64,000 nt of DNA, taken from the NCBI GenBank assembly GCA_947561715.1, contig OX387202.1:17125001-17189000 (forward strand), written 5' to 3'. The translations under genes were made by a program, and so were the position numbers. Under the pieces are notes generated by a model. The model did no database searches. It was not told the origin of the DNA and saw nothing but the letters and a program-made list of their open reading frames with translations. The DNA comes from Ascidia mentula. Its lineage: Eukaryota > Chordata > Ascidiacea > Phlebobranchia > Ascidiidae. Position 1 is the first letter of the stretch. The number at the start of each line of letters is the position of its first letter. Of this stretch, positions 17,801 through 64,000 are shown one piece after another.

Positions 17801-18719
17801 TAACAGTTTTCCGTAACCAAACTTTGTTCCAACTAACGCTTTTCGTAACGAAATTTTGTTCCAGCTAACGCTTTTCGTAACGAAATTTTGTTCCAGCTAA
17901 CAGTTTTCCGTAACAAAATTTGCTTACTGCTGTCGCTTTTTGTGAGCTAAATTTATTTAAAACCGATCATTTTGGCAACTTAAAGTATGCTCTTAGCCAA
18001 CATTTCGCGTAACAAAATTTTGTACCAACTAACGCTTTTCGTAACGAAATTTTGTTCCAACTAACGCTTTTCGTAGCGTAATTTTGTTCCAGCTAACGCT
18101 TTTCGTAACGAAATTTTGTTCCAGCTAACGGTTTTCGTAACGAAATTTTGTTCTAGCTAACACTTTTCGTAACGAAATTTTTTTTCCAACTAACGCTTTT
18201 CGTAACGAAATTTTGTTCCAGCTAACGGTTTTCGTACGAAATTTTGTTCCAGCTCACACTTTTCGTAACGAAATTTTGTTCCAACTAACGCTTTTCGTAA
18301 CAAAATTTTATTCCAGCTGACGCTTTTCGTAACGTAATTTTGTTCCAGCTAACGCTTTTCGTAACGAAATTTTGTTCCAGCTAACGGTTTTCGTACGAAA
18401 TTTTGTTCCAGCTAACACTTTTCGTAACGAAATTTTGTTCCAACTAACGCTTTTCGTAACGAAATTTTGTTCCAGCAAACAGTTTTCCGTAACAAAATTT
18501 GCTTACTGCTGTCGCTTTTTGTGAGCTAAATTTATTTAAAACCGATCATTTTGGCAACTTAAAGTATGCTCTTAGCCAACATTTCGCGTAACAAAATTTT
18601 GTTCCAACTAACGCTTTTCGTAACGAAATTTTGTTCCAATTAACACTTTTTGTAACAAAATTTTGTTCCAGCTAACAGTTTTCCGGAACAAAATTTTCTT
18701 ACAGCTGTCGCTTTTTGTG

Positions 18720-20880
18720 AGCTAAATTTATTTAAAACCGATCATTTTGGCAACTTAAAGTATGCTCTTAGCCAACATTTCGAGTAACAAAATTTTGTTC
18801 CTACTAACAGTTTTCCGTAACCAAACTTTGTTCCAACTAACGCTTTTCGCAACGAAATTTTGTTCCAGCTAACGCTTTTCGTAACGAAATTTTGTTCCAG
18901 CTAACAGTTTTCCGTAACAAAATTTGCTTACTGCTGTCGCTTTTTGTGAGCTAAATTTATTTAAAACCGATCATTTTGGCAACTTAAAGTATGCTCTTAG
19001 CCAACATTTCGCGTAACAAAATTTTGTACCAACTAACGCTTTTCGTAACGAAATTTTGTTCCAACTAACGCTTTTCGTAGCGTAATTTTGTTCCAGCTAA
19101 CGCTTTTCGTAACGAAATTTTGTTCCAGCTAACGGTTTTCGTAACGAAATTTTGTTCTAGCTAACACTTTTCGTAACGAAATTTTTTTTCCAACTAACGC
19201 TTTTCGTAACGAAATTTTGTTCCAGCTAACGGTTTTCGTACGAAATTTTGTTCCAGCTCACACTTTTCGTAACGAAATTTTGTTCCAACTAACGCTTTTC
19301 GTAACAAAATTTTATTCCAGCTGACGCTTTTCGTAACGTAATTTTGTTCCAGCTAACGCTTTTCGTAACGAAATTTTGTTCCAGCTAACGGTTTTCGTAC
19401 GAAATTTTGTTCCAGCTAACACTTTTCGTAACGAAATTTTGTTCCAACTAACGCTTTTCGTAACGAAATTTTGTTCCAGCAAACAGTTTTCCGTAACAAA
19501 ATTTGCTTACTGCTGTCGCTTTTTGTGAGCTAAATTTATTTAAAACCGATCATTTTGGCAACTTAAAATATGCTCTTAGCCAACATTTCGCGTAACAAAA
19601 TTTTGTTCCAACTAACGCTTTTCGTAACGAAATTTTGTTCCAATTAACACTTTTTGTAACAAAATTTTGTTCCAGCTAACAGTTTTCCGGAACAAAATTT
19701 TCTTACAGCTGTCGCTTTTTGTGAGCTAAATTTATTTAAAACCGATCATTTTGGCAACTTAAAGTATGCTCTTAGCCAACATTTCGAGTAACAAAATTTT
19801 GTTCCTACTAACAGTTTTCCGTAACCAAACTTTGTTCCAACTAACGCTTTTCGCAACGAAATTTTGTTCCAGCTAACGCTTTTCGTAACGAAATTTTGTT
19901 CCAGCTAACAGTTTTCCGTAAAAAAATTTGCTTACTGCTGTCGCTTTTTGTGAGCTAAATTTATTAAAAACCGATCATTTTGGCAACTTAAAGTATGCTC
20001 TTGGTCAACATTTCGCGTAACAAAATTTTGTTCCAACTAACGCTTTTCGTAACGAAATTTTGTTCCAATTAACACTTTTTGTAACAAAATTTTGTTCCAG
20101 CTAACAGTTTTCCGTAAGAAAATTTTCTTACAGCTGTTGCTTTTTGTGAGCTAAATTTATTAAAAAAACGATCATTTTGGCAACTTAAAGTATGCTCTTA
20201 GCCAACGTTTCGAGTAACAAAATATTGTTCCTTCTAACAGTTTTCCGTAACCAAACTTTGTTCCAACTAACGCTTTTCGTAACGAAATTTTGTTCCAACT
20301 AACGCTTTTCGTAACGAAATTTTGTTCCAGCCAACACTTTTCGTAACGAAATTTTGTTCCAACTAACACTTGTAACAAAATTTTGTTCCAGCTAACAGTT
20401 TTCCGTAACCAAATTTTCTTACAACCGACGGTTTTTGTGAGCTAAATTTATTAAAAACCGATCATTTTGGCAACTTAAAGTATGCTCCTGGCCAACATTT
20501 CGAGTAACAAAATTTTGTTCCTACTAACAGTTTTCCGTAACCAAACTCTGTTCCAACTAACGCTTTTCGCAACGAAATTTTGTTCCAGCTAACGCTTTTC
20601 GTAACGAAATTTTGTTCCAGCTAACAGTTTTCCGTAAAAAAATTTGCTTACTGCTGTCGCTTTTTGTGAGCTAAATTTATTAAAAACCGATCATTTTGGC
20701 AACTTAAAGTATGCTCTTGGTCAACATTTCGCGTAACAAAATTTTGTTCCAACTAACGCTTTTCGTAACGAAATTTTGTTCCAATTAACACTTTTTGTAA
20801 CAAAATTTTGTTCCAGCGAACAGTTTTCCGTAAGAAAATTTTCTTACAGCTGTTGCTTTTTGTAAGCTAAATTTATTAAA
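18720..20880. repeat. Large duplication within the minisatellite, left copy
   Basis: Recurs to the right: 18720-20120 matches 22681-24081 at offset 3,961, and 20160-20880 matches 24317-25037 at offset 4,157. The 196-base difference is one extra spacer-plus-units block near 24110-24310. Confidence 0.75.
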
Positions 20881-22680
20881 AAAACGATCATTTTGGCAAC
20901 TTAAAGTATGCTCTTAGCCAACGTTTCGAGTAACAAAATATTGTTCCTTCTAACAGTTTTCCGTAACCAAACTTTGTTCCAACTAACGCTTTTCGTAACG
21001 AAATTTTGTTCCAGCTCACACTTTTCGTAACGAAATTTTGTTCCAACTAACGCTTTTCGTAACAAAATTTTATTCCAGCTGACGCTTTTCGTAACGTAAT
21101 TTTGTTCCAGCTAACGCTTTTCGTAACAAAATTTTGTTCCAGCTAACGGTTTTCGTACGAAATTTTGTTCCAGCTAACACTTTTCGTAACGAAATTTTGT
21201 TCCAACTAACGCTTTTCGTAACGAAATTTTGTTCCAGCAAACAGTTTTCCGTAACAAAATTTGCTTACTGCTGTCGCTTTTTGTGAGCTAAATTTATTTA
21301 AAACCGATCATTTTGGCAACTTAAAGTATGCTCTTAGCCAACATTTCGCGTAACAAAATTTTGTTCCAACTAACGCTTTTCGTAACGAAATTTTGTTCCA
21401 ATTAACACTTTTTGTAACAAAAATTTGTTCCAGCTAACAGTTTTCCGTAACAAAAATTTCTTACAGCTGTCGCTTTTTCTGAGCTAAATTTATTTAAAAC
21501 CGATCATTTTGGCAACTTAAAGTATGCTCTTAGCCAACATTTCCAGTAACAAAATTTTGTTCCTACTAACAGTTTTCCGTAACCAAACTTTGTTCCAACT
21601 AACGCTTTTCGTAACGAAATTTTGTTCCAGCTAACGCTTTTCGTAACGAAATTTTGTTCCAGCTAACAGTTTTCCGTAACAAAATTTGCTTACTGCTGTC
21701 GCTTTTTGTGAGCTAAATTTATTTAAAACCGATCATTTTGGCAACTTAAAGTATGCTCTTAGCCAACATTTCGCGTAACAAAATTTTGTACCAACTAACG
21801 CTTTTCGTAACGAAATTTTGTTCCAACTAACGCTTTTCGTAGCGTAATTTTGTTCCAGCTAACGCTTTTCGTAACGAAATTTTGTTCCAGCTAACGGTTT
21901 TCGTAACGAAATTTTGTTCTAGCTAACACTTTTCGTAACGAAATTTTTTTTCCAACTAACGCTTTTCGTAACGAAATTTTGTTCCAGCTAACGGTTTTCG
22001 TACGAAATTTTGTTCCAGCTCACACTTTTCGTAACGAAATTTTGTTCCAACTAACGCTTTTCGTAACAAAATTTTATTCCAGCTGACGCTTTTCGTAACG
22101 TAATTTTGTTCCAGCTAACGCTTTTCGTAACGAAATTTTGTTCCAACTAACGCTTTTCGTAACGAAATTTTGTTCCAGCAAACAGTTTTCCGTAACAAAA
22201 TTTGCTTACTGCTGTCGCTTTTTGTGAGCTAAATTTATTTAAAACCGATCATTTTGGCAACTTAAAGTATGCTCTTAGCCAACATTTCGCGTAACAAAAT
22301 TTTGTTCCAACTAACGCTTTTCGTAACAAAATTTTATTCCAGCTGACGGTTTTCGTACGAATTTTGTTCCAGCTAACACTTTTCGTAACGAAATTTTGTT
22401 CCAACTAACGCTTTTCGTAACGAAATTTTGTTCCAGCAAACAGTTTTCCGTAACAAAATTTGCTTACTGCTGTCGCTTTTTGTGAGCTAAATTTATTTAA
22501 AACCGATCATTTTGGCAACTTAAAGTATGCTCTTAGCCAACATTTCGCGTAACAAAATTTTGTTCCAACTAACGCTTTTCGTAACGAAATTTTGTTCCAA
22601 TTAACACTTTTTGTAACAAAATTTTGTTCCAGCTAACAGTTTTCCGGAACAAAATTTTCTTACAGCTGTCGCTTTTTGTG

Positions 22681-25037
22681 AGCTAAATTTATTTAAAACC
22701 GATCATTTTGGCAACTTAAAGTATGCTCTTAGCCAACATTTCGAGTAACAAAATTTTGTTCCTACTAACAGTTTTCCGTAACCAAACTTTGTTCCAACTA
22801 ACGCTTTTCGCAACGAAATTTTGTTCCAGCTAACGCTTTTCGTAACGAAATTTTGTTCCAGCTAACAGTTTTCCGTAACAAAATTTGCTTACTGCTGTCG
22901 CTTTTTGTGAGCTAAATTTATTTAAAACCGATCATTTTGGCAACTTAAAGTATGCTCTTAGCCAACATTTCGCGTAACAAAATTTTGTACCAACTAACGC
23001 TTTTCGTAACGAAATTTTGTTCCAACTAACGCTTTTCGTAGCGTAATTTTGTTCCAGCTAACGCTTTTCGTAACGAAATTTTGTTCCAGCTAACGGTTTT
23101 CGTAACGAAATTTTGTTCTAGCTAACACTTTTCGTAACGAAATTTTTTTTCCAACTAACGCTTTTCGTAACGAAATTTTGTTCCAGCTAACGGTTTTCGT
23201 ACGAAATTTTGTTCCAGCTCACACTTTTCGTAACGAAATTTTGTTCCAACTAACGCTTTTCGTAACAAAATTTTATTCCAGCTGACGCTTTTCGTAACGT
23301 AATTTTGTTCCAGCTAACGCTTTTCGTAACGAAATTTTGTTCCAGCTAACGGTTTTCGTACGAAATTTTGTTCCAGCTAACACTTTTCGTAACGAAATTT
23401 TGTTCCAACTAACGCTTTTCGTAACGAAATTTTGTTCCAGCAAACAGTTTTCCGTAACAAAATTTGCTTACTGCTGTCGCTTTTTGTGAGCTAAATTTAT
23501 TTAAAACCGATCATTTTGGCAACTTAAAATATGCTCTTAGCCAACATTTCGCGTAACAAAATTTTGTTCCAACTAACGCTTTTCGTAACGAAATTTTGTT
23601 CCAATTAACACTTTTTGTAACAAAATTTTGTTCCAGCTAACAGTTTTCCGGAACAAAATTTTCTTACAGCTGTCGCTTTTTGTGAGCTAAATTTATTTAA
23701 AACCGATCATTTTGGCAACTTAAAGTATGCTCTTAGCCAACATTTCGAGTAACAAAATTTTGTTCCTACTAACAGTTTTCCGTAACCAAACTTTGTTCCA
23801 ACTAACGCTTTTCGCAACGAAATTTTGTTCCAGCTAACGCTTTTCGTAACGAAATTTTGTTCCAGCTAACAGTTTTCCGTAAAAAAATTTGCTTACTGCT
23901 GTCGCTTTTTGTGAGCTAAATTTATTAAAAACCGATCATTTTGGCAACTTAAAGTATGCTCTTGGTCAACATTTCGCGTAACAAAATTTTGTTCCAACTA
24001 ACGCTTTTCGTAACGAAATTTTGTTCCAATTAACACTTTTTGTAACAAAATTTTGTTCCAGCTAACAGTTTTCCGTAAGAAAATTTTCTTACAGCTGTTG
24101 CTTTTTGTGAGCTAAATTTATTTAAATCCGATCATTTTGGCAACTTAAAGTATGCTCTTGGTCAACATTTCGCGTAACAAAATTTTGTTCCAACTAACGC
24201 TTTTCGTAACGAAATTTTGTTCCAATTAACACTTTTTGTAACAAAATTTTGTTCCAGCTAACAGTTTTCCGTAAGAAAATTTTCTTACAGCTGTTGCTTT
24301 TTGTGAGCTAAATTTATTAAAAAAACGATCATTTTGGCAACTTAAAGTATGCTCTTAGCCAACGTTTCGAGTAACAAAATATTGTTCCTTCTAACAGTTT
24401 TCCGTAACCAAACTTTGTTCCAACTAACGCTTTTCGTAACGAAATTTTGTTCCAACTAACGCTTTTCGTAACGAAATTTTGTTCCAGCCAACACTTTTCG
24501 TAACGAAATTTTGTTCCAACTAACACTTGTAACAAAATTTTGTTCCAGCTAACAGTTTTCCGTAACCAAATTTTCTTACAACCGACGGTTTTTGTGAGCT
24601 AAATTTATTAAAAACCGATCATTTTGGCAACTTAAAGTATGCTCCTGGCCAACATTTCGAGTAACAAAATTTTGTTCCTACTAACAGTTTTCCGTAACCA
24701 AACTCTGTTCCAACTAACGCTTTTCGCAACGAAATTTTGTTCCAGCTAACGCTTTTCGTAACGAAATTTTGTTCCAGCTAACAGTTTTCCGTAAAAAAAT
24801 TTGCTTACTGCTGTCGCTTTTTGTGAGCTAAATTTATTAAAAACCGATCATTTTGGCAACTTAAAGTATGCTCTTGGTCAACATTTCGCGTAACAAAATT
24901 TTGTTCCAACTAACGCTTTTCGTAACGAAATTTTGTTCCAATTAACACTTTTTGTAACAAAATTTTGTTCCAGCGAACAGTTTTCCGTAAGAAAATTTTC
25001 TTACAGCTGTTGCTTTTTGTGAGCTAAATTTATTAAA
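22681..25037. repeat. Large duplication within the minisatellite, right copy
   Basis: Right copy of the segment at 18720-20880, with one additional 196-base sub-block. Agreement over the stretches I compared is essentially complete, so the event is recent or homogenised. Confidence 0.75.
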
Positions 25038-26100
25038 AAAACGATCATTTTGGCAACTTAAAGTATGCTCTTAGCCAACGTTTCGAGTAACAAAATATTG
25101 TTCCTTCTAACAGTTTTCCGTAACCAAACTTTGTTCCAACTAACGCTTTTCGTAACGAAATTTTGTTCCAACTAACGCTTTTCGTAACGAAATTTTGTTC
25201 CAGCCAACACTTTTCGTAACGAAATTTTGTTCCAACTAACACTTGTAACAAAATTTTGTTCCAGCTAACAGTTTTCCGTAACCAAATTTTCTTACAACCG
25301 ACGGTTTTTGTGAGCTAAATTTATTAAAAACCGATCATTTTGGCAACTTAAAGTATGCTCCTGGCCAACATTTCGAGTAACAAAATTTTGTTCCTACTAA
25401 CAGTTTTCCGTAACCAAACTCTGTTCCAACTAACGCTTTTCGCAACGAAATTTTGTTCCAGCTAACGCTTTTCGTAACGAAATTTTGTTCCAGCTAACAG
25501 TTTTCCGTAAAAAAATTTGCTTACTGCTGTCGCTTTTTGTGAGCTAAATTTATTAAAAACCGATCATTTTGGCAACTTAAAGTATGCTCCTGGCCAACAT
25601 TTCGAGTAACAAAATTTTGTACCAACTGACGCTTTTCGTAACGAAATTTTGTACCAACTAACGCTTTTCGTAACGAAATTTTGTTCCAGCGAACAGTTAT
25701 TGTAACAAAATTTTGTTCCAGCTATTCCGTAACAAAATTTTCTTACAGCTGTCCCTTTCTGTGAGCTAAATTTATTCAAAAACCGATGATTTTGGCAACT
25801 TAAAGTATGCTCCTAGCTAACACTTCGTGTAACAAAATTTTGTTCCAGCTAACACTTTTCGTAACAAAGTTTTCTGACAACTATCGCTTTTTGTGAGCTA
25901 ATATTGAAAACCGATGATTGTTGCAACTTAAAGTAGCTTGTGCTCCTAGCCAACATTTCGATTAACAAAATTTTGTTCCAGCTAATACTTTTCGTAACAA
26001 AATCTTGTTCCCAATAACATTTTTGTGACGTATTTTCTTCCAATTAACAGTTTTGCATCAAAATTGTGTTACAGCTAACACTTTTGGTAACGAGATCTAA

Positions 26101-32877: not shown

Positions 32878-35858
32878 CAACAAAGCGGGAAGTTTTCTGG
32901 GGGAATTTTGGGAAAAAGCAACATCGACATCTTTCTTCGTCTCTCTCGTATTTTAACTGCATGTCTTGCTCTTTTTCGGTGGGAGCTTGGAAGTATGTGT
33001 AATGTGTAGTCACAGACTAAACTCCCTGCACAACTATATGATTGACTCAAATGTTGCCAAATCAAAGGTAACAAATATTAACAAAATAATGGAATTTAAA
33101 TATTTTAATTATTAGTTTTTTCTTCTATCTCTTTTAATCGAATGTTCACTGGCATCGCAGCCAAGGCTTGGCTCCCAAGCTTGATCAGCCACTGTGGCCC
33201 CTATAGGCGCAATGGGTTTTTTGGGCCTGTTGGCTAATAATTGCCTGAATGTCTCTCTGTAGAATTCACAATGGCAAATACATTAATTCGAATAACAGTT
33301 TATTATCAGGGATTCGGGAATAAATTCCAAGCCCCGGCGAATAGCTTATGGAGTCTCAGTATTGATGGCCTTGTCACAATGATAATAGAGAATGCAATTG
33401 AACATGTAACAGACTGATCTTAACTCAACTTGTAATGCCATGCACTGCGATTTGAAACGTAAGATCACGTGACAATGCTACAGCAGCAGCGACATATAGT
33501 GGAAGAGGAAAAAGGGAATGTCACGAAATGACTGTAAAAAGTGGAATAGTGATATTGCCATGTTGATGTGAATCATCAAACAGATCAATTTATTTGAACT
33601 TGGGCATTGCGTTAGAATAAAAGTTCCACAAAAGATTTCCCAAATATTTAAGTTCTGATACTGCGAAATGAAACAAAGTTTGGAGTTTGTCTGGATGGCA
33701 AATTTATTGTGGCATGAGTCGTAACTGCGATTTGTTATGAGGTATATAGAAGGTTTCCTGGGCGTAGCACGTAATTGTAATTGCTGCAGATTGCTACATA
33801 ATAAACCGTGCAAATGAAAGCGTTGGTTTGAGTTCGATTTTGCATGGGGTTTTTATATTGGAAGACGAAGCTGGGCGTTTTCTGAATGAAGGTTGGGAAA
33901 AAAGAACGTTGGCTTCTTTCTACGTCTCTCTCTTTAATTTTAGCTGCATGTCTTACTCTTTTTCGGTGCGAGCTTGGAAGTATGTGTAATGTGTAGTCAC
34001 AGACTAAACTCCCTGCACAACTATTTGATTGACAGAAATGTTGCCAAATAAAAGGGTAACAAATGTTAACAAAATAATGGAATTTAAATATTTAATTAAT
34101 AGTTTTTTCTTCTATCTTTTTTTATCAAATATTCACTGCCATCGCAGCCAAGGCTTGGCACCTAAGCTTGATCATCCACTGTGGCCCCTATAGGCGCAAC
34201 AAATCCTGTGGAGGCGAAAGGCCTGTTGGCTAATAATTGCCCGAATGTCTATTCCATGCATCTGTCTGTTTGTAGAATTTACAATGACAAACACTTTAAT
34301 TCGAATAACAATTTTTTATCGGGCTTTGGGAAAAATTCTAATGACCGGCGAATGGCTTATAGAGACTCAGTGTTGATGTTGTTGTTACAATGATAATAGA
34401 AAATGCAATTGAACACGTAGCAGACTGATCTTAACTCAACTTGTATTGCCATGCACTGCGATTTGAAACGTAAGATCACGTGACAATGCTAGAGCAGCAG
34501 CGACATATAGTGGAAAAGGAAAAAGGGAATGTCACGAAATGACTGTTAAAACTTGTCATTGTCCGCTGCAATATCCACATCGCTATATGACTTCAACCTT
34601 GGTTTCGTATATGTTTAAGATTTTCCCCGAAAAGTTACGCTCAATATTTTGTAAAGTAAATATGTTCACATTTTACACAGCAACGGACAACAGACAACAC
34701 ACATGGAAATATTTTTGGAAACCGTCACGCATTTGTGGAAATATTGCTGGGAACCTTTGGGTTCATTAGCATAGCCACAAGAAGTTTCTCTCAGAAGCTA
34801 TAGAGAAGGACAAACCTTGGTAAGTAATATGTTTGTGCAAGCGAAGCAACAGATTCGTCAAAACCACTCGTACAGGATGCAATCAGACTGATATCGGCAC
34901 TCAAACCTCGGAAATAATGTGAAAGACATCGGCAAAAGGCGCAATGTGATTCCATCGAACCAACGTTCTTCGTATCAATGCAATGGATAAACACGGAAAA
35001 CTGCATAATGGTAACTGAATTTAATGCTTCACAAAAAATAAAACAACATTTTGGTTTGGTACATATGACGATGCATAAACACAAACAACACTTCCGGTGT
35101 CTCCACGGGGGAAATTCCCTCTTACGTGCAAGTTTCTTGTAATTTCCTTTACCAAAGAAAGAGCGCACAAAAACAGAAGAGAATATACTGGAATAGAGAC
35201 ATTGCCATATTTATGTGAATCATCAAACAGATCAAGTTATTTCAACTTGGACATTGCATAAGAATGGAAGTTCCACAAAAGTTATTTCCGTAAATATTGT
35301 TGCTGATTGCTACATAATAAACCGTGCACATGAAAGCATTGGTTTGAGTTCGACTTCCGATCGTAGACAAAACTTGCCTGGAGTTTTTATATTGAAAGGG
35401 GAAGCTGGACGTTTTCTGCAAGAACACTGGGAAAAAAGAACGTTGACTTCTTTCTGAGTCTCTCTCTTTTATTTTGGCTGCATGTCTTGCTCTTTTTCGG
35501 TGCGAGCTTGGAAGTATGTGTAATGTGTAGTCACAGACTAAACTCACTGCACAACAATATGAATGACTCAAATGCTCGCAAAATGAATGGAAAAAAATAT
35601 AACCAAAATAAAGAATTTTAATGATTTAAATGATAGATTTTAGTTATTTCTTCAAATCAAATGTTTACTGGTATCGCCGCCAAGGCTTCGCACCCAAGCT
35701 TGATCAGCCACTGTGACCCCTATAGGCACAATGACCCTTTTGGAGGCGAAAGGCCTGTTGGCTAATAATTGCCCGAATGTCTCTCTGTAGAATTAACAAT
35801 GGCAAACACTTTAATTCGAATAACAGTTTATTATCAGACTTTTGGGAATAAATTCCAA

Positions 35859-36854
35859 TCCCCGGCGAATAGCTTATAGAGTCCCAGTGATGATGTTTAA
35901 GATTTTCCCCGAAAAGTTACGCTCAGTATTTTGTAAAGTAAATATTTTCACAATTTGCACAGCAACAGACAACACACATGGAAATATTTTTGGAAACCGT
36001 CACGCATTTGTGGAAATATTGCTGGGAACCTTTGGGTTCATTAGCAAAGCCATAAGAAGTTTCTCTCATGAGCTATAGAGAAGGTCAAACCTTGGTAGTT
36101 AATATGTTTGTGCAAGCGAAGCAACAGTCAAAACCACTCGTACAGGAGTCTACTGGTATCGCAGCCAAGGCTTGGCACCCAAGATTGATCGGCCACTGTG
36201 GCCCCTATAGACGCAATTGACCCTTTGGAGGCGAAAGGCCTGTTGGCTAATTATGGCCGGAATGTCAATTACAACTGTCTCTTTGTAGAATTTACAATGG
36301 CAAACACTTTAATTCGAATAACAGTTTTTTATCAGGCTTTTGGGAATAAATTCTAATCCCCGGCGAATAGCTTATAGAGTCCCAGTGATGATGTTTAAGA
36401 TTTTCCCCGAAAAGTTACGCTCAGTATTTTGTAAAGTAAATATTTTCACAATTTGCACAGCAACAGACAACACACATGGAAATATTTTTGGAAACCGTCA
36501 CGCATTTGTGGAAATATTGCTGGGAACCTTTGGGTTCATTAGCAAAGCCATAAGAAGTTTCTCTCATGAGCTATAGAGAAGGTCAAACCTTGGTAGTTAA
36601 TATGTTTGTGCAAGCGAAGCAACAGTCAAAACCACTCGTACAGGAGTCTACTGGTATCGCAGCCAAGGCTTGGCACCCAAGATTGATCGGCCACTGTGGC
36701 CCCTATAGACGCAATTGACCCTTTGGAGGCGAAAGGCCTGTTGGCTAATTATGGCCGGAATGTCAATTACAACTGTCTCTTTGTAGAATTTACAATGGCA
36801 AACACTTTAATTCGAATAACAGTTTTTTATCAGGCTTTTGGGAATAAATTCTAA
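35859..36854 (+). repeat. 498-bp perfect tandem duplication
   Basis: Two adjacent 498-base copies (about 35859-36356 and 36357-36854) look identical along their whole length, including a shared junction between unit A segments at CAGGAGTCTACTGG. Each contains the same 78-codon frame. Confidence 0.85.
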
Positions 36855-37140
36855 TCCCCGGCGAATAGCTTATAGAGACTCAGAGTTGATAGTCTTGTTA
36901 CAGTGATAATAGAGAATGCAATTGAACACGTAACAGATTGATCTCAACTCAACTTGCAATGCCATACACTTCGATTTGAAACGTAAAATCACGAGATAAT
37001 TTTAGAGCAACAGCGACACATAGTGTAAGAGGAAAAAGGGAATGTCACGCAATGTCTGTTAAAACTTGTCATTGTCCGCTGCAATATCCACATCGCTATA
37101 TGACTTAAACCTTGGATTCGTATGTGACTAAGATTTTCCC

Positions 37141-39474: not shown

Positions 39475-39476
39475 TT
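39471..39476 (-). terminator. Polyadenylation signal overlapping the stop codon, ficolin copy 1
   Basis: On the minus strand AATAAA overlaps the TAA stop of the ficolin (ATGTAATAAAAC). A second AATAAA lies about 26 bases further on at 39445-39450 and is the more usual candidate. Either would give a very short 3' UTR. Confidence 0.4.
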
Positions 39477-42175
39477 ACATCACAGGTCTTATTTTTATTT
39501 CCGAACGTTCACGTGATACCAGATTCCAACGGTTCGAATCGCCTGCTCCTGTCGCCTCCTTGTAATACTTTCCGTTCAGGTTGGAGTAATAACAACTCTT
39601 ATACCACCAAGCTCCATGGAAACTAACAGCACAGTTTCCACCACGTGAATCATGATCTCGGTCATGTGTGGAGAATGGCATCTGATTGTGATATTCCAGC
39701 CGATCAACTATTGGTGCAAATTTTTTTAAAGTTTAGTTTGCGGTTCAGATGTTAACCAGCCAATCACCTTGCATATAATTGAGAGCAGTGAATGTTTAAT
39801 ATATATAGATTTAACGCATTTTGTGAGTAACATAGACAAATGTGCCAATAACGCTATAATTGCGAAACACATTATTTTTTAATTCCAATTTTTAGTATTG
39901 CGTATTCAGACTTCGTAAAAATTTTAGTTCTTGGAGACATTTTTCCATTTATTTGATTCTTTCGGTTTTGGCGGCTAGCGATTTTCACAAATGATAAAAA
40001 AATGTTTATTAACCTCCACACAAGTGATTGGTTCGTATATTTACTTCAAAAGTATAAACGGTCAACAGATGAGGATCTAAAAAGTCTTGTCAGGAGGCAC
40101 GCGACCGGATAATACAAAATATTTTAGCACGCATCCTCATGTGAGTTTTGTAACTCACCCACGATTTAGAGCAGGGGTGCGCACACTGCGGCCGTAAACA
40201 TGCTTTATATTACATTTGTATTGTCGGCCGTGCATTGTAAAAAACCTAACAGGTTTTGCTTGGATGTTTGGCTTATTGAATTGTTCAGTTTTGGTTACAA
40301 AACAAAATAAAATCTTTCATTTTTGTGCAAGAAATATTGGTGAATGTAAAATTTCATTACACTATAAGGGATAAGTAAATGCGAAATTATTAGTTTGGAC
40401 TCACTGGCGACTGTTAGTAAAATAAAGTCTGTGTGATGCGGCCGGTATTAATAAAAAGGCTGTGCGCCCCTGAGTTAGAGACTTTATTAAACCTCCTTTG
40501 TATGAAGCTAATTAGATAAACATGTTTGCTCACTTACCTGCGTCACCAGTGTACCCACCAACAGTCAGACGGTAATTCTCCCCTGATGAACCGATGCTGA
40601 AGTTGCTGTCAAGATGGTACAAATAGGAACTCAAAAACTTGGCACTCAAACGCACGCATGTAGTTACCTGTACTTTGCATAATACTTTGTGTCATCGAAA
40701 TTTTGCAGGTCAACGCGGAGCTCTTGACGTTTCCAACTTGTCAGTTCGTGCATCAGCTCCAAGCCTTAATTAATTAACAAACGTGTTATTTGTTTATGCT
40801 TTTTACAAATGTTGTTGGTGTTTAGAGATGAAAAAGCTGTGCTTGCACTAATGCGCAGCCCAAGATATGACAATCGTGACGACGAGAAAATACTAACACA
40901 TTTACACACAAGCCTATCTACCATTGTTTGTGTTTGAAACTATCGCTGGAGGCACTAAAGAACGAAAACTAATTGGGAGTTGGTAAAATCTAAATCAACA
41001 AAATAAACAATTGATTTAAATGCGGGTAATGCCATTGTCGCAATACCTAACCAAAACTCTCCAGTCAAGGAACCAAATCCATTTTCATATTCTCTCCAGC
41101 CCCGATAAAAATTAGTTGAACCATCAAATCTTTTCTGTACAACCTGAAAATTTAAAAAGAAAAACAAAATTGACATTGTCTTGCGTGGATTTTCGCTTAA
41201 TATTTCCATCGAGCAATTACATGCATCCGTTATGTTGCAATGTTCTTTGCATGTTATAATTAAATTTGAAACGGATACTTTTACAGAAATCGTTTGTATT
41301 TCCTGCAGTAATTAATTAATGGCATCCCGTTCTATTACAGTATCGGTTGCATAACATTACCTTGTTTTTTAAAATAAAATTAATCATTATTTGTCAAACC
41401 ACTACAATTAACCAAATAAAAATATATTTTTTTTCTTAAAAGATAAACTCACTAGCCAACCACCGCCATCAGTTTGCATGTCGCAATATCCTTGGTAAGG
41501 CCGAGGAGAGAATAAATTGTAAACCCCGCTTTGCGTCATTCCGTTTTGCAACGCATCCTTGCAACTGGCGTAAACAAAACGATTCATATCTCCTGCAAAA
41601 TGAAACGTAAGCATTGGTTTTATAGGAATTATGTCCCTTTAACGCAGATACATCTTTACTGATATCGACAACATTGCAATAATAAAAAAAAAACTTTCAC
41701 CAAACCTGACATTACTGTAAGATTGTTCTCCAATTCATCCTGTTTTGATGCTAATTTCACGACAGAAACGTTTACGTCTGTTAAAAGAATAGAATATATT
41801 AAAAATAACCTTAAATCATTTGTGCTTAAGGTTTAAACCAAGTGCCACTAACGCAGTTCCAAAACAAAAGTAAATGTTTTAACTTTAGCAAAACTAAATA
41901 CGTTTAAGTTCAGTTTCCATTGCTTCCATCTTTGCTTCCAATCTCCTGAATTCATCTTCCCAGGTGTTATTGGCACCTGGTTCACCTTTCGGACCCTGGA
42001 CACCATGAGGCCCAACAGCTCCCTTTGGACCCCGTTTTCCAGGAGGACCCGCTGGTCCTGGTATCGGATCTTCGTTGCTTCCTCCACAAGTCAGGATGAC
42101 CTGATTGGCTCTTTGGCACAAGCTTAGAATTGGACAAGTTAGAAAAAGCAGCAGAATGCAGCTGATATTTGCCAT
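39475..42175 (-). CDS. Ficolin-like secreted lectin, copy 1 (7 exons)
   Basis: Predicted 326-residue secreted lectin; ficolins bind sugars or acetyl groups on microbes and feed the lectin complement pathway. Exons on the minus strand: 42175-41902, 41777-41706, 41592-41453, 41143-41047, 40764-40668, 40605-40538, 39707-39475. Every junction is GT-AG and all phases join. Order: hydrophobic signal peptide ([20 protein letters not shown]), about ten Gly-X-Y triplets from [10 protein letters not shown], a short charged neck, then a fibrinogen-related domain with [39 protein letters not shown], the calcium loop [26 protein letters not shown] and C-terminal KIRPVM. The length fits vertebrate ficolins. 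An in-frame TTG start further upstream was rejected because the ATG at 42175 directly precedes the signal peptide. The intron before the last exon holds a hAT-type insertion. The family call is firm; ligand and complement role are inferred. Confidence 0.9.
40172..40472. mobile_element. Non-autonomous hAT-type element in the last ficolin 1 intron
   Basis: The 301-bp element has inverted ends CAGGGGTGCGCACA and TGTGCGCCCCTG. The flanking 8-mers ATTTAGAG and AGTTAGAG match at 7 of 8 positions, as expected of a hAT target-site duplication. There is no transposase frame. It sits in the intron between exons 6 and 7. Confidence 0.85.
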
Positions 42176-42997: not shown

Positions 42998-43490
42998 CTG
43001 GGAACCGTCAGGTACTTGTGGAAATATTGCTGGGAACCGTCATGTATTTGTGGATATATTGCAGGGAACCGTCAGGTATTTGTGGAAATATTGCTGGGAA
43101 CCGTCGGGTACTTGCGGAAATATTGCTGGGAACCGTCATTTAATTGGGAAATATTGCAGGGAACCGTCATTTAATTGTGGAAATATGGCTGGGAACCGTC
43201 CGGGTATTTGTGGAAATATTGCTGGGAACCGTTAGGTACTTGTGGAAATATTGCTGGGAACCGTCATTTAATTGGGAAATATTGCAGGGCACCGTCAGGT
43301 ACTTGTGGAAATATTGCTGGGAACCGTCATGTATTTGTGGATATATTGCAGGAAACCGTCAGATATTTTTGGAAATATTGCGGGGAACCGTCAGGTACTT
43401 GTGGAAATATTGCAGGGAACCGTCATGTAATTGTGAAAATATGGTTGGGAACCGTAATGTAATTTTGGAAATATTGCTGGAAACTTTTGG
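42998..43490. repeat. 32-bp minisatellite (about 15 copies) next to ficolin 1
   Basis: Unit approximately GGGAACCGTCAGGTACTTGT followed by GGAAATATTGCT, with variants such as GTCATTTAATTG. The unit is 32 bases, so open frames run through it in several frames (42823-43557) without being genes. The same motif occurs as 1 to 2 copies inside each unit A (CCGTCACGCATTTGTGGAAA), so the array probably expanded from there. Confidence 0.9.
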
Positions 43491-51539: not shown

Positions 51540-53600
51540 TTCGAAATTATGTTTATTTTGTTAATATGTGTGCACTACGGTATATAAGCATATTTTACCG
51601 TGCAAAATAAGTGTAATTCTAGCGCTACATAGAAGGACCATGAATTATGGATCGTGGCAAAAGATATTACGGAAGAAAGGGCCCGATTTTGTAGCTGCAG
51701 TATCTTTGTATCCGAAGGCATAACAAAAATATTAGGAAAGCTATTTTTATAGCAAGCAATAGGTTTTCGTACACGAGTCACAAACCGTTGTCATTTGTAT
51801 TTAATCTAAAAGAAACGACCGTTTGCAACTGTTCTGGTTACGCCGTGTGATTAGTATAATGTGCCACAATCAATCTGTGACTCCCTGTGTGATTACTACC
51901 ACCGTGCGGAAAGCTGATAGCAATTAACTGTCATATAAATGCGTTCTTGTAATCCAGGGGTGCACAACCTTTTTACTATTGCCGACCGCATCACACACAC
52001 CACTGTGTGCTAACGGCCGCCACTGAATATACTATTTTTTCAACGATATACTCCTGATAATTACGACAAGTTGACGTGAGCATTATAAGAAAGGAATGGA
52101 AATGATTCCATACCTGAAAAAATGTGCACTATTTATTATTTACATTTGCCAAATTACGTATATTACAATGTAATGAAATGTCGAATTATTCAATGACTGC
52201 CTTGTTCTTGCACGCTAGGTTCACGTCTCCATCATAAAACAATCCACTTCCCATTTGGGATTAAATGCCCTTTTCTCTTGTTTTAACAGCCTTTTGCGTT
52301 TCAGCGACATGACTGAGCGATTCCACTGTTTAGCATTTCGACAACTGCACATGCGTACTTGACAATTCACCGATATGCTATTAATGTTTTATGACGTCAC
52401 CATCCCTATTGTTGCGCTTTGTCTTGGTTGCGGTGGCTGCACCAGTTACTACTCGCTACAGCGAACGTATGTGTATAACGCGGAAATGGAAATGGACCTA
52501 ATCAATAGCTTAACTCTTGAGACCGCTAGAAAAACAAGTTTCAGAAGCAACGACGGCCGCCAATTCATATTTTTTGATATAAATGTGCACGGCCGCAAAA
52601 AATAGCGTCCGCGGCCGCAGGTTGTGCACCGCTGTGTAATCGAACGTCTTCAGTTGTTGTTTAGCCTACAGTCATTTCGATACGAACAATTTAAAGAAAC
52701 TCAACATCAACAGGGAAACAAAAATGTTCATCTTGTGTTAGTTTTCGTTCACTTGTATCAACTCACTTATAAATGCTTTGACAAATACCTTACTCAGGGG
52801 TTCACAAATGGATTCATCAGGCTTGTCCACAAGCATATGAAAAATGCACAATGTTACAGGACCTACGGGTTTCGAGACATTAAAATTAGCGAAATACTTG
52901 GTTTACTGACTTTTCTGACTCCTCTTGCTTAAAGTTCCAGATGATTGATAGACCACGCTTTCGCGGTCTGTATTCATGATGAAAATCAAGTGAGCTTTTG
53001 CCCTTTTACTCTACGCAAGGTTTCCGTCCTCGCTGAGCTCACCTAAGGACACCTGTGTTATTCTTACGCAAATGTCATTGCGTAAACCACTGGCGACAGC
53101 AACTCTGGAGCGATGTCTGACTGAAATAGGAAGTCATTATGTTCGTACAACTGACTTGGAGGTCCACAATACAATAGCACACACAGAAATCTGGTTTGAG
53201 TCTAGATCTTATGCAGAAATATCTCGTCCACTATTTTGCAAGGGAAATATCTTGCGGTGCCAGATCCGCCACCCAGCACATAGAACACAACACGCAATTG
53301 TATTCAATGTTGAGCAGAATGGGGGCGCGACGGAAACACAAACACTACAAAAATTCCCATTTGTTTTGAGCTTGATTTATTAATAGCGGCTCGAGGCTCA
53401 CGCTTTTGGGGAAAAGAGAAAAAAGAGTGTTTTTCTTGTAAATGTGTATTTGCCTTCCGCAGAGTTATTAAAATATGATAGGAATTCCATTTTATGGAAA
53501 GTGATTACTTGACCCACAAACAGTTTTTCAAAAAAAAACGCATCTAATCCATAGTCTAATCTTTTTGCATGTAATTGCTTTAAGCGTAGTTCTTGTTGGT
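51540..53600. repeat. Repeat family X, copy 2
   Basis: Same order of landmarks as 37500-38600, interrupted at 51955-52634 by a hAT-type insertion. It also has an extra segment at about 52875-53070. A 103-codon frame at 53072-53383 is partly shared with the copy at 56089-56343 but is not recognised. Confidence 0.75.
51955..52634. mobile_element. Non-autonomous hAT-type element in repeat X
   Basis: The 680-bp element has ends CAGGGGTGCACAACCT and AGGTTGTGCACCGCTG. It is flanked by TGTAATC on both sides, with an eighth base that differs. Copies of X at about 37865 and 55835 have the empty site (TTCTTTTTATCCAACG and TTCTTGTTATCGAACG). An unrecognised 76-codon frame lies at 52375-52605; there is no transposase. 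Confidence 0.82.
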
Positions 53601-60395: not shown

Positions 60396-60397
60396 TT
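60392..60397 (-). terminator. Polyadenylation signal overlapping the stop codon, ficolin copy 2
   Basis: Same arrangement as in copy 1: AATAAA overlaps the TAA stop, with a second AATAAA at 60367-60372. Conservation in both copies supports a short 3' UTR. Confidence 0.4.
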
Positions 60398-63019
60398 ACA
60401 TCACAGGTCTTATTTTCATTTCCGAACGTTTACGTGATACCGGATCCCAACGGTTGGAATCGGATGCCCTTGTCTCCTCCTTGTAATACTTTCCGTTCAG
60501 GTTGGAGTGATAACAACTCTCATACCACCAAGCTCCATGGAAACCAACAGCACAGTTTCCACCAATTGAATCATGATCTCGGTCATGTGTGGAGAATGGC
60601 ATCTGATTGTGAAATTCCAGCCGATCAACTATTGGTGCAAATTTTCAAAAGTTTAGTTTGCGGTTCAGATGTTAACCAGCCAATCACCTGGCATACATTT
60701 GAAAGAAGTGAATGTTTAATATATATAGATTTAACGCATTTTGTGAGTAACATAGACAAATGTGCCAATAACGATATAATTGCGAAACACATTATTTTTT
60801 AATTCCGATTTTTTAGTATTGCGGATTCAGACTTCGTAAAAATTTTAGTTCTTGGAGACATTTTTTCGATTTATTTTAAACTTTCGATTTTGGCGGCAAG
60901 CGAATTTCACAAATGATAAAAAAATGTTTATTAACCGCCACACAAGTGACTGGCTCGTATATTTACTTCAAAAGTACGCAGACTTTTATGGAAAAAAGTC
61001 TTGCATAAAAAAATGGGCAAAACGAGTGAAATTCAGCACGTCATCAACTCACCTGCGGCCGTAAACATGCTTTATATTACATTTGTATTGTCGGCCGTGC
61101 ATTGTGAAAAACTTGGTTTACAGGTTTTGCTTGGATATTTGGCTTATGGAATTGGTCAATCTTTGTTATAAAACAGAATAAAATCAAGCATTTTTTACAA
61201 AATTTCATTACACTTTTAAAGGCATAATTAAATGCGTAATTGTCAGTTGGGACTCACTGGCGACTGTTGGTAAAATAAAGTCCGTGTGATGCGGCCGGTA
61301 TTAATCTAAAGGTTGTGCGCCCCTGAGTTGGAGACTTTATTAAACTACCTTTGTATCAAGACTAATTTATTTGAACGTGTTTGCTCACTTACCTGCGTCA
61401 CCAGTGTACCCAGCAACAGTCAGACGATAATTCTCCCCTGATGAACCGATGCTGAAGTTGCTGTCAAGATGGTATAAATAGGAACTCAAAAACTTGGCAC
61501 TCAAACGCACGCATGTAGTTACCTGTACTTTGCATAATACTTTGTGTTATCGAAATTTTGCAGGTCAACGCGGAGCTCTTGACGTTTCCAACTTGTCAGT
61601 TCGTGCATCAGCTCCAAGCCTTAATTAATTAACAAACGTTAAGTGTTATTTGTTTATGCTTTTTGCAAATGTTGTTGGTGTTTAGAGATGAAAAAGCTTT
61701 GCTTGCACTAATGCGCAGCCCAATATATGACAATCGTGACGACGAGAAAATACTAACACATTTACGCACAAGCCTATCTACCATTGTTTGTGTTTGAAAC
61801 TACCGCTGGAGGCACTAAAGAACGAAAACTAATTGGGAGTTGGTAAAATCTAAATAAACAAAATAAACAATTGATTTGAATGCGGGTATTGCTAATGTCG
61901 AATTACCTAACCAAAACTCTCCAGTCAAGGAACCAAATCCCTTTTCATATTCTCTCCAGCCCCGATAAAAATTAGTTGAACCATCATATCTTTTCTGTAC
62001 AACCTGAAAATTTAAAAAGAAAAACAAAATTGACATTGTCTTGCCTGGATTTTCGCTTAATATTTCCATCAAGCAATTACATGCATCCGTTATGTTTCAG
62101 TGTTCTATGCTTGTTATAATCAAAATTGAAACAGATACTTTTATAGAAAACGTTTGTATTTCCTGCTGTAATTAATTTAAGACATTCCGTTTTATTTGTA
62201 GTTTCGGTTGCATTGTTTGCATAACATTACCCTGCTTTTTTTCAAAAAATAAATCATTCTTTGTCAAACCTCTACAATTAACAAAAAAATGAAAAAAAAT
62301 ATGAACTCACTAGCCAACCACCACCATCAGTTTGCATGTCGCAATATCCTTGGTAAGGCCGAGGAGAGAATAAATTGTAAACCCCGCTTTGCGTCATTCC
62401 GTTTTGCAACGCATCCTTGCAACTGGCGTAAACTACACGATTCGTATCTCCTACAAAATAAAACGTAGGCATTTTTTCGAATATGAATTATGTCCCTTTA
62501 ACGCAGATACATCTTTACTGATATCGACAACATTGCAATAATAAAAAAGAACTTTCACCAAACCTGACGTTACTGTAAGATTTTTCTCCAATTCATCCTG
62601 TTTTGATGCTAACTTCGCGACGGAAACGTTTACGCCTGTTAAAAAAATACAAAACTATTAAAATAACCTTAAATCATTTTTGCTTGAGGTTTAAAACAAA
62701 TGCCACAAACGCAGTTTCAAAATAAAATTAAGCAAAACTAAATACGTTTGAGTTCAGTTTCCATTGCTTCCATCTTTGCTTCCAATCTTCTAAATTTGTC
62801 TTCCCAGGTGTTATTGGCACCTGGTTCTCCTTTCGGACCCTGGACACCATGAGGCCCAACAGCTCCCGGTGGACCTCGTTTTCCAGGAGGACCCGCTGGT
62901 CCTGGTATCGGATCTTCGTTGCTTCCTCCACAAGTCAGGATGACCTGATTGGCTCTTTGGCACAAGCTTAGAATTGGACAAGTTAGAAAAAGCAGGAGAA
63001 TGCAGTTAATATTTGCCAT
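60396..63019 (-). CDS. Ficolin-like secreted lectin, copy 2 (7 exons)
   Basis: Paralogue of the gene at 39475-42175 with identical exon lengths and phases: 63019-62746, 62635-62564, 62450-62311, 62003-61907, 61619-61523, 61460-61393, 60628-60396. It also predicts 326 residues: signal peptide, about ten collagen triplets ([13 protein letters not shown], so one triplet reads GPP where copy 1 has GPK), neck and fibrinogen-related domain. I count 25 residue differences from copy 1 by hand (about 92% identity), twelve of them in the last exon. The calcium loop reads DRDHDSIGGNCAV and keeps the aspartates. [13 protein letters not shown] and KIRPVM are retained. No break is visible, so both copies are probably functional. 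The two may differ in ligand preference; that is inference. Confidence 0.9.
61054..61325. mobile_element. Left-truncated copy of the same hAT-type element in ficolin 2
   Basis: It matches 40172-40472 from GCGGCCGTAAACATGC to the right end GTTGTGCGCCCCTG. The left terminal repeat and target duplication are gone. The shared intron position shows that insertion came before the gene duplication. Confidence 0.8.
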
Positions 63020-63854
63020 CTGAATTTTGAAAGTAGGCCTACAGAAGTTAAACAAGAAACAACATGAAATGTTACATGCTGATTATGTCAAGTCGGATAC
63101 AGAAGAATGCCTTAAACAAGGAAAAACCTTTTTTTGTTACAATTTATCCGTTTGTTGTTCATTTGTGTTTAATTGAATTCCGCATTTTATTTTTGTATCA
63201 CTTTTTATTCATGGAAAATTTAGTGTATTTTTTACCCACGACATATGAATACACAAAACTTAGTAACGTGCAGATAGTTTCACATCACAATCATTACATT
63301 GGGTTTTCTTTTATTTAAGAGTTCTCTTTTAGGTTACCTGAATTGCGAAACTGCGTTTTTTCGGCGATTGTTGATTTGATAACTTGGTTGTTTACAATTA
63401 AACTATCTTTTTAGTCGTGTGAACTCATTTAAAAACTTAATATTTAACATACAAAAACGACTGCAGTTCTTCCAGATGATTTTAGCGTTTCATATCTTTC
63501 GTCACAAACTCCTCACACTGTGCAAACATACAGACACCTCTGCACAGAGCAAGTATATCCCTCTGTCTTCATTTGCAACGATATAATTAAACACTCTGTC
63601 TCTTTTTTTGGCGAGGGCACTGCCAACATTCGCACGTAACCACTAAAGATTCGAGAGTTTTCAAATGATGATGGCATAAGCACTTGCCGAAACGTTCAAA
63701 ATATATAAAACAGAGCAAAGTTTACCGACCAAACTCTCAGAATCTTACCTAGATCTGCAACAATATCTCAAGCTTTCAGACGCTTATAAACTTGAATGTT
63801 ATTTCAGTTTGTCGAAAAACAAAAAAAGGCGGTTTGCTGGTATTATTTGAATCT

Positions 63855-64000
63855 GGGAACCGTCAGGTACTTGTGGAAATATTGCTGGGAACCGTCAGGT
63901 ACTTGTGGAAATATTGCTGGGAACCGTCATTTAATTGGGAAATATTGCAGGGAACCGTCATTTAATTGTGGAAATATGGCTGGGAACCGTCCGGGTATTT
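63855..64000. repeat. 32-bp minisatellite next to ficolin 2, cut by the window end
   Basis: Same unit and same position relative to the ficolin as the array at 42998-43490, including the GTCATTTAATTG variants. It continues past the end of the window. Confidence 0.88.

Follow-up and report, generated by a model that had tools for sequence, protein, structure and literature searches.

Clustered ficolin-like genes of the ascidian Ascidia mentula, whose hypervariable last exon is exchanged between genes and appears to be under diversifying selection

Introduction

Ficolins usually occur as a few genes per genome and recognise acetylated patterns. A stretch of 64,000 nucleotides of the Ascidia mentula genome, hereafter called the window, carries two ficolin-like genes (A and B) whose last exons differ mostly by residue-changing substitutions. 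An earlier sequence-only reading of the window had proposed, from a codon-by-codon comparison of the two genes, that this divergence is confined to the last exon and that it reflects selection for new binding specificity after duplication. The locus raises the question of what has shaped the last exon: selection on the ligand site, the copying of exons between genes, a mutational process or mere relaxation of constraint. Here, we describe the gene pair and the array to which it belongs, follow diversity and exchange along the genes, and consider selection, the position of the variable codons relative to known ligand contacts, and the reading that best accounts for the whole.

The gene pair

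Both genes lie on the reverse strand and are intact, with seven exons, AG/GT borders and 326 amino acids, and the last exon (exon 7) has 233 nt in each. In gene A, exon 1 (41902..42175) contains the start codon, a hydrophobic N-terminus that was judged by eye to be a putative secretion signal, and a short collagen-like Gly-X-Y stretch. It is followed by exon 2 (41706..41777), exon 3 (41453..41592), in which the fibrinogen-like domain begins, exon 4 (41047..41143), exon 5 (40668..40764) and exon 6 (40538..40605), all with AG/GT borders, and by exon 7 (39475..39707), which encodes the C-terminal fibrinogen-like part with the calcium loop, the S1 pocket and the hypervariable codons. The exons of gene B are placed at 62746..63019, 62564..62635, 62311..62450, 61907..62003, 61523..61619, 61393..61460 and, for exon 7, from which the earlier proposal arose, 60396..60628.

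The fibrinogen-like domain of gene A matches PF00147 at 208 bits, and the best match of the gene among solved chains in a single-sequence search is ficolin-2 (E=7e-57). The Gly-X-Y stretch is visible in exon 1 and scores 20.9 bits with the Pfam collagen model, under the cut-off of 27.2. Fibrinogen and collagen were the only Pfam matches to gene A at E up to 0.001, with no IgSF domain among them.

Direct alignment of the pair reproduces the reported counts exactly. The last exons differ at 16 bases over 13 codons, 12 of which replace the residue (15 substitutions) and one of which is silent. Exon 1 carries 12 substitutions; replacement codons account for 4 of them and silent codons for 8. Replacement and silent counts for the exons between, excluding codons split by a splice junction, are 3/2 (exon 2), 3/1 (exon 3), 2/0 (exon 4), 1/0 (exon 5) and 1/1 (exon 6). 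Confinement of the divergence to the last exon is not demonstrable from this single pair, because exons 2-6 together carry just 15 substitutions. By path-averaged NG86 counting, exon 7 has 14.0 nonsynonymous and 2.0 synonymous differences over 181 and 47 sites (Fisher p=0.54), and we rejected the dN/dS of the pair as stand-alone proof of selection. Exon 7 has also diverged no faster than the introns (16/233, or 6.9%, vs 118/1588, or 7.4%; p=0.89).

The window contains several repeats. A ten-kilobase array of a 32-bp unit occupies 15161-25724, with higher-order periods of 196, 229 and 425 bp, negative GC skew and some copies about 1 kb apart that match at 99%. This 32-bp unit recurs as a minisatellite upstream of each of the two ficolin genes (42998-43484 and 63853-63991), where it could aid misalignment and exchange among the array genes. 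A 190-bp unit is repeated in tandem about 40 times at 7123-14804 (90% matches), and a 498-bp unit 2.5 times at 35666-36877 (96% matches). The sole Rfam match in the window is a fragment of eukaryotic LSU rRNA at 52911-53102 on the reverse strand (115 bits).

The array

The Ascidia mentula genome contains at least 176 stretches that match the fibrinogen-like domain. The last exon of gene A has at least 66 matches, two of them partial (33 residues), in a 1.1-Mb array at C70:16.868-17.970 Mb; this number is a tally of match rows and a lower bound. Additional copies of exon 7 are found elsewhere on contig C70 and on other contigs. Exon-1 matches inside the array frequently show 95-100% protein identity, and others are lower. 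Elsewhere in the genome, fibrinogen-like domains are also clustered at C70:3.06-3.32 Mb, C67:9.16-9.45 Mb, C71:2.34-2.37 Mb, C72:15.81-15.84 Mb and C73:13.11 Mb. As judged by eye, dispersed copies and those at the array end (L069-L074) vary too at exon 7 positions of the variable set described below, within a similar frame.

Sixty of the 66 array matches were retrieved as whole genes, and L071 and L072 as the last-exon region only. The exon 7 set comprises 57 of the 60 loci (54 distinct sequences), leaving out L013, which is truncated, and L023 and L047, which lack the usual stop. The set for exons 4-6 comprises 56 loci (51 distinct), without L028 and L059 (no clear exon 4) and L056 and L062 (stop). 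Diversity along the gene was profiled in 57 loci and distance matrices between segments were compared in 55 genes. L028, L059 and L061 have an intact exon 7 frame and matches to exons 5-6 (exons 4-6 in L061), with no clear exons 1-3 in the stretch retrieved; they are possible pseudogenes or cassette donors.

Contig C79 bears an open frame that contains the mitochondrial COX1 and has 18 AGA/AGG codons, two of them ahead of the COX1-like part. Several of the 12 such codons displayed fall within motifs such as GGFGNW and GTGWTVYPP, and the glycines in motifs of this type are conserved. AGA/AGG stands for Gly in the ascidian mitochondrial code, and the codon use of this frame marks the organism as a tunicate.

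Diversity along the gene

Nucleotide diversity across the 57 loci is 0.043 in exon 4, 0.142 in intron 4, 0.025 in exon 5, 0.035 in intron 5, 0.032 in exon 6, 0.111 in intron 6, 0.115 in exon 7 and 0.169 in the 3' flank. The block from exon 5 through intron 5 to exon 6 appears to be homogenised or young, because low diversity extends to the intron. Taken as a whole, exon 7 has a diversity close to that of introns 4 and 6, and no greater.

Within exon 7, 12 codons carry 5-12 residues each among the 54 distinct sequences, and stand among near-invariant neighbours (HGAWWY, the cysteines, SNLNG and W). For 16 variable codons, which were picked after inspection, piN is 0.47 and piS 0.17, a ratio of 2.76 (bootstrap 1.73-5.17), whereas the remaining 68 alignment columns are constrained, with piN 0.037, piS 0.071 and a ratio of 0.53 (0.36-0.84). 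Exons 4-6 have piN 0.027 and piS 0.062 (ratio 0.43). The ratio for the whole of exon 7 is 1.37, with a codon-bootstrap interval (0.93-2.00) that includes 1.

The variation is concentrated at the first two codon positions: the 13 variable codons examined have a diversity of 0.60 at position 1 and 0.52 at position 2, compared with 0.22 at position 3. Third-position T/C differences occur in 5.8% of pairs at variable codons vs 3.2% at other codons. Columns in which all four bases occur are more frequent in exon 7 than in introns 4 and 6 plus the 3' flank (13/233 vs 6/1202, p=4e-7), and there is no significant excess of exon 7 columns with diversity above 0.5 (22/233 vs 78/1202, p=0.12). The variable codons are weakly associated with each other, most strongly when adjacent, and the residue sets at the 13 positions differ among all 54 distinct exon 7 sequences. 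A codon-wide mutation hotspot was considered and rejected, because a hotspot would raise silent changes too and the silent third positions are not hot.

Exchange of the last exon

Distances between genes in exon 7 show no relation to those in exon 1 (Spearman 0.00), exons 4-6 (-0.04), the 3' flank (0.02) or the first part of intron 6 (-0.05), and very little to those in the end of intron 6 (0.19; 55 genes throughout). Individual pairs reveal where the relationship breaks. L025 and L039 share an identical stretch of 1614 nt that begins with exon 3 and stops 266 bp short of exon 7, and have 3 mismatches between exon 1 and that point; downstream, mismatches number 21 in the final 266 bp of intron 6, 28 in exon 7 (25 in replacement codons and 3 silent) and 8 in the 190 bp past it. 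The converse is seen in L012 and L044, which differ upstream and agree at every base from 1131 bp before exon 7, through the exon, to the end of the 197 bp of flank compared.

Gene A (L026) is itself such a case. It matches L025 exactly throughout the final 295 bp of intron 6, exon 7 and the 197 bp of flank compared, and the two have 20 mismatches in intron 3 and 12 in intron 4. A last exon acquired by gene conversion, which the sequence-only reading had named as the result that would speak against it, is thus in part what gene A displays. Furthermore, the contrast between exon 1 and exon 7 of the pair, which that reading had offered as evidence of selection, is confounded and was set aside as proof, because the genealogies of the two exons are unrelated.

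PHI tests indicate recombination in exons 4-6 (p=0.007) and, with p=0.005, in the block as a whole; within exon 7 the test is uninformative (p=0.61). Taken from these comparisons, the genealogy of exon 7 is uncoupled from that of the rest of the gene, and the sharp breakpoints show that exon 7 cassettes have been exchanged between genes.

Selection on the variable codons

Site models were fitted with in-house code in which branch lengths were fixed up to a scale. For the 54 distinct exon 7 sequences, omega under M0 is 1.92, and M2a (lnL -3159.0) improves on M1a (lnL -3382.0) by 2ΔlnL 446, placing 18.5% of codons in a class with omega2 of 7.98. Twelve codons are assigned to this class at P>0.95 (columns 2, 25, 28, 33, 34, 43, 44, 47, 60, 62, 66 and 68). 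Exons 4-6 have an M0 omega of 0.52 and gain 3.3 lnL units under M2a (columns 57 and 68); these exons are alike and under constraint.

Recombination can mimic a site-model signal, and the exon 7 models were therefore refitted on deliberately wrong trees (a star tree, the tree of each half applied to the other half, and a tree from non-variable codons). The refits gave 2ΔlnL of 314-805, and the P>0.95 codons were found again in every fit (5/5 in the right half and 7/7 in the left half for the half-tree fits); in three of the four fits, the class proportions mismatch the count of sites recovered. Among 12 simulations that lacked positive selection (four on a single tree, four in which the genealogy changed after each 5 codons and four in which it changed at each codon), the highest values were 2ΔlnL 29.7 and omega2 1.83, against the observed 446 and 7.98.

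Tree-free comparisons of disjoint nearest pairs, in nested sets, gave exon 7 dN/dS of 1.24 (4 pairs, p=1), 1.07 (7 pairs, p=1), 1.70 (12 pairs, p=0.04), 1.64 (20 pairs, p=0.0045) and 1.32 (27 pairs, p=0.035), compared with 0.45 for exons 4-6 (25 pairs, p=3e-5). Among recent whole-gene duplicates, exon 7 has changed faster than the introns in L043/L064 (odds ratio 6.5, p=0.004) and L019/L031 (5.0, p=0.0007), and shows no acceleration in L036/L065 (2/233 vs 40/2160, p=0.43).

These observations argue for strong diversifying selection on about 12 codons of exon 7 at the level of the family, with site-model support that goes beyond what recombination produces. When paralogues are added, as the earlier reading had recommended, a dN/dS above 1 is seen site by site and in the larger disjoint-pair sets, and not securely over the whole exon. 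Of the 12 replaced codons in the A/B pair, 7 (columns 25, 33, 43, 47, 60, 62 and 68) fall in the family-wide hypervariable set.

The variable codons and the ligand site

A profile of eight domains was aligned to solved chains, with FIBCD1 (4m7f) as the best match, followed by ficolin-2. The residues around the FIBCD1 ligand are named in the structure paper (PMC3908420). FIBCD1 residues are numbered here by our own count along the chain, and columns were mapped by alignment rather than from coordinates, after the variable codons had been seen.

In gene B, the variable codons fall in three stretches on the reverse strand. The first (60540..60566; columns 25, 28, 33 and 34) runs from the calcium-loop segment as far as the column that aligns with FIBCD1 Tyr405. 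The second (60507..60521; columns 43, 44, 46 and 47) flanks an invariant cysteine and corresponds to FIBCD1 Arg412, Asn413, His415 and Thr416, and the third (60444..60470; columns 60, 62, 66 and 68) corresponds to the region of FIBCD1 430-438. Columns 34, 44 and 46 align without gaps to Tyr405, Asn413 and His415, column 27 to Glu398 and column 5 to Lys381, a position at which contact is made in tachylectin-5A rather than observed in FIBCD1 (PMC3908420). Column 62 aligns to Tyr431 in the single-sequence search or to Ala432 in the profile search, with one residue of doubt.

The contact list was taken from the structure paper (PMC3908420) and not from the variation. It excludes the invariant Cys414, which makes its contact through the main chain, and Trp443, to which no residue aligns; Tyr431/Ala432 was counted as one codon. 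The six resulting contact codons have 0.909 replacements (mean N) per pair vs 0.243 in the other 70 (p=6e-4). They rank 2, 5, 9, 13, 17 and 20 of 76 in replacements, with columns 27 and 5 being 17th and 20th. Three of the six (columns 34, 44 and 62) belong to the P>0.95 set; column 46 (His415), with five residues, varies less strongly and lies outside it.

The structural positions of the domain are largely retained. The two calcium aspartates are kept in 54/54 and 53/54 sequences, and both cysteines at the Cys401-Cys414 disulphide positions in 54/54, while side chains vary at the main-chain calcium ligand positions Ser397 and Asn399 (columns 25 and 28). All four canonical acetyl-binding S1 residues, as known from FIBCD1, tachylectin-5A and M-ficolin (Tyr405; Asn or Arg413; His415; Tyr or Phe431, taking column 62 as 431), are present together in 0/54 sequences: three are retained in 4 sequences, two in 19, one in 19 and none in 12. 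No counterpart of the FIBCD1 Trp443 loop was found in the alignment. The missing S1 residues speak to the ligand and not to descent, because L-ficolin binds acetyl groups at a site other than S1 (PMC3908420).

A probable germline-encoded lectin repertoire and its alternatives

We consider it probable that this clustered tunicate array, with a constant core and an exchanged last exon that appears to be under diversifying selection, is best read as a germline-encoded lectin repertoire. The core encoded by exons 4-6 is kept alike. Exon 7 retains the residues of the fold, the disulphide and the calcium site, varies at about a dozen codons and behaves as a cassette that moves between genes by gene conversion or unequal crossing over. 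Each gene may encode a secreted lectin, oligomeric through its short collagen-like stretch, with its own pocket. Exon 7 would set ligand specificity, and a varied set of pockets would be of benefit: the array would then provide a germline set of specificities for recognising a range of ligands (those of microbes, symbionts or non-self cells), and both cassette exchange and point changes in the codons of the pocket would renew it.

The alternatives each account for part of the pattern. If last exons were simply copied from diverged donors, with no selection on the pocket, then the uncoupled genealogy of exon 7 and the clear cassette exchanges would be expected, and the partial genes L028, L059 and L061 could be the donors. 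However, conversion carries silent and replacement differences alike, and the variable codons differ almost solely in replacements, so conversion explains the movement of exon 7 and not the pattern of its variation; the eight null simulations with shuffled genealogies also stay far below the observed likelihood gain. Conversion alone is therefore very unlikely to be sufficient. Nearly neutral drift, with exon 7 unconstrained after duplication, exon 1 conserved and no new specificity selected, would fit the intron-like diversity of exon 7, the intron-like rate and non-significant test in the A/B pair, the whole-exon ratio interval that includes 1 and the absence of an excess of highly diverse columns. 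Against it stand the constraint outside the 16 variable codons, the diversity of 0.60 and 0.52 at the first two positions of the variable codons, with third positions rarely differing by T/C, set against intron values of about 0.11-0.14, the excess of four-base columns, and the site models with their null simulations, and we regard drift as highly improbable.

Targeted mutagenesis of chosen codons, template-directed or deaminase-like, with selection secondary, would explain why variable codons adjoin near-invariant ones and why many have a near-fixed third base (NNT, NNC, NNG or NNA), an appearance that resembles diversity-generating retroelements. It is opposed by the occurrence of all four bases across the variable positions and by third positions that are not hot for silent change. 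Adenine-directed change is not favoured either, with the third-position A of column 28 kept in 51/53 sequences while positions 1 and 2 vary. A mutational origin of this kind seems extremely unlikely. A different extension of the repertoire reading holds that interchangeable exon 7 cassettes give each animal a private pocket set and that cassettes may be exchanged in body cells as well, which would make the repertoire partly somatic; this we think unlikely.

Both ideas raised by the sequence-only reading, diversifying selection and gene conversion, hold together in the preferred reading of a germline repertoire. Selection for new binding specificity finds support at the family level, in some 12 exon 7 codons and in the codons aligned with ligand contacts, and gains none from the gene pair on its own. 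If the germline reading is true, the array would be a chordate germline answer, in the sister group of the vertebrates, to a problem for which antibodies and lamprey receptors are the somatic answers. If the partly somatic version is true, an invertebrate chordate would have an expanded repertoire that uses ficolins rather than immunoglobulin or leucine-rich-repeat domains. The system is directly testable, as the analysis names the positions that vary, the borders of the cassettes and the pocket that is predicted.

Comparison with known systems

Among the titles and abstract openings listed in searches of the open-access literature, none described a hypervariable tunicate ficolin array. The closest known systems include the ficolins of tunicates (Halocynthia roretzi and Botryllus) and of vertebrates (human FCN1-3). 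Ascidian ficolin transcripts are known (PMC5465252, PMC2527998), and collagen-bearing ficolins have been found in vertebrates and urochordates in a survey of selected genomes (PMC11312191). The array genes share with ficolins the fibrinogen-like domain, preceded by a short collagen-like stretch that scores below the Pfam cut-off in gene A, with ficolin-2 and FIBCD1 as the best solved matches. By domain content the proteins are ficolin-like, and the array can be regarded as a multigene family of immune type that has diversified on the scaffold of a ficolin. It differs from ficolins in its varied pocket positions, which never retain the full canonical S1 set, and in its size, with four ficolin orthologues given in a paper on Botryllus allorejection (PMC2527998) against at least 66 exon 7 matches here. 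Ascidian ficolins come from phenoloxidase-containing haemocytes and are tied to the lectin pathway (PMC5465252), and ficolins are raised in Botryllus allorejection (PMC5465252; see also PMC2527998). Because of these two associations, microbial recognition and non-self recognition may both be possible roles for the array, by analogy.

Compared with FIBCD1 and tachylectin-5A, fibrinogen-like lectins that bind acetyl groups, the array keeps the calcium aspartates and the Cys401-Cys414 positions but varies at the positions of Tyr405, Asn413, His415 and Tyr431/Ala432, with 5-11 residues each. The FREPs of Biomphalaria are likewise fibrinogen-domain lectins, and gene conversion and point mutation generate their variants (PMC7588048). 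Variants among the cells of one snail have been reported for FREPs (PMC7588048). FREPs bear IgSF domains, of which none was found in gene A.

In the sea urchin Sp185/333 (SpTransformer) family, diversity involves sequence elements. Like the array, it is a tightly clustered and diverse multigene family, with estimates of about 50 members (PMC5491942). The protein family is unrelated, however, and its diversity also involves repeats (PMC5491942), whereas that of the ascidian array lies in point codons of a lectin-type domain.
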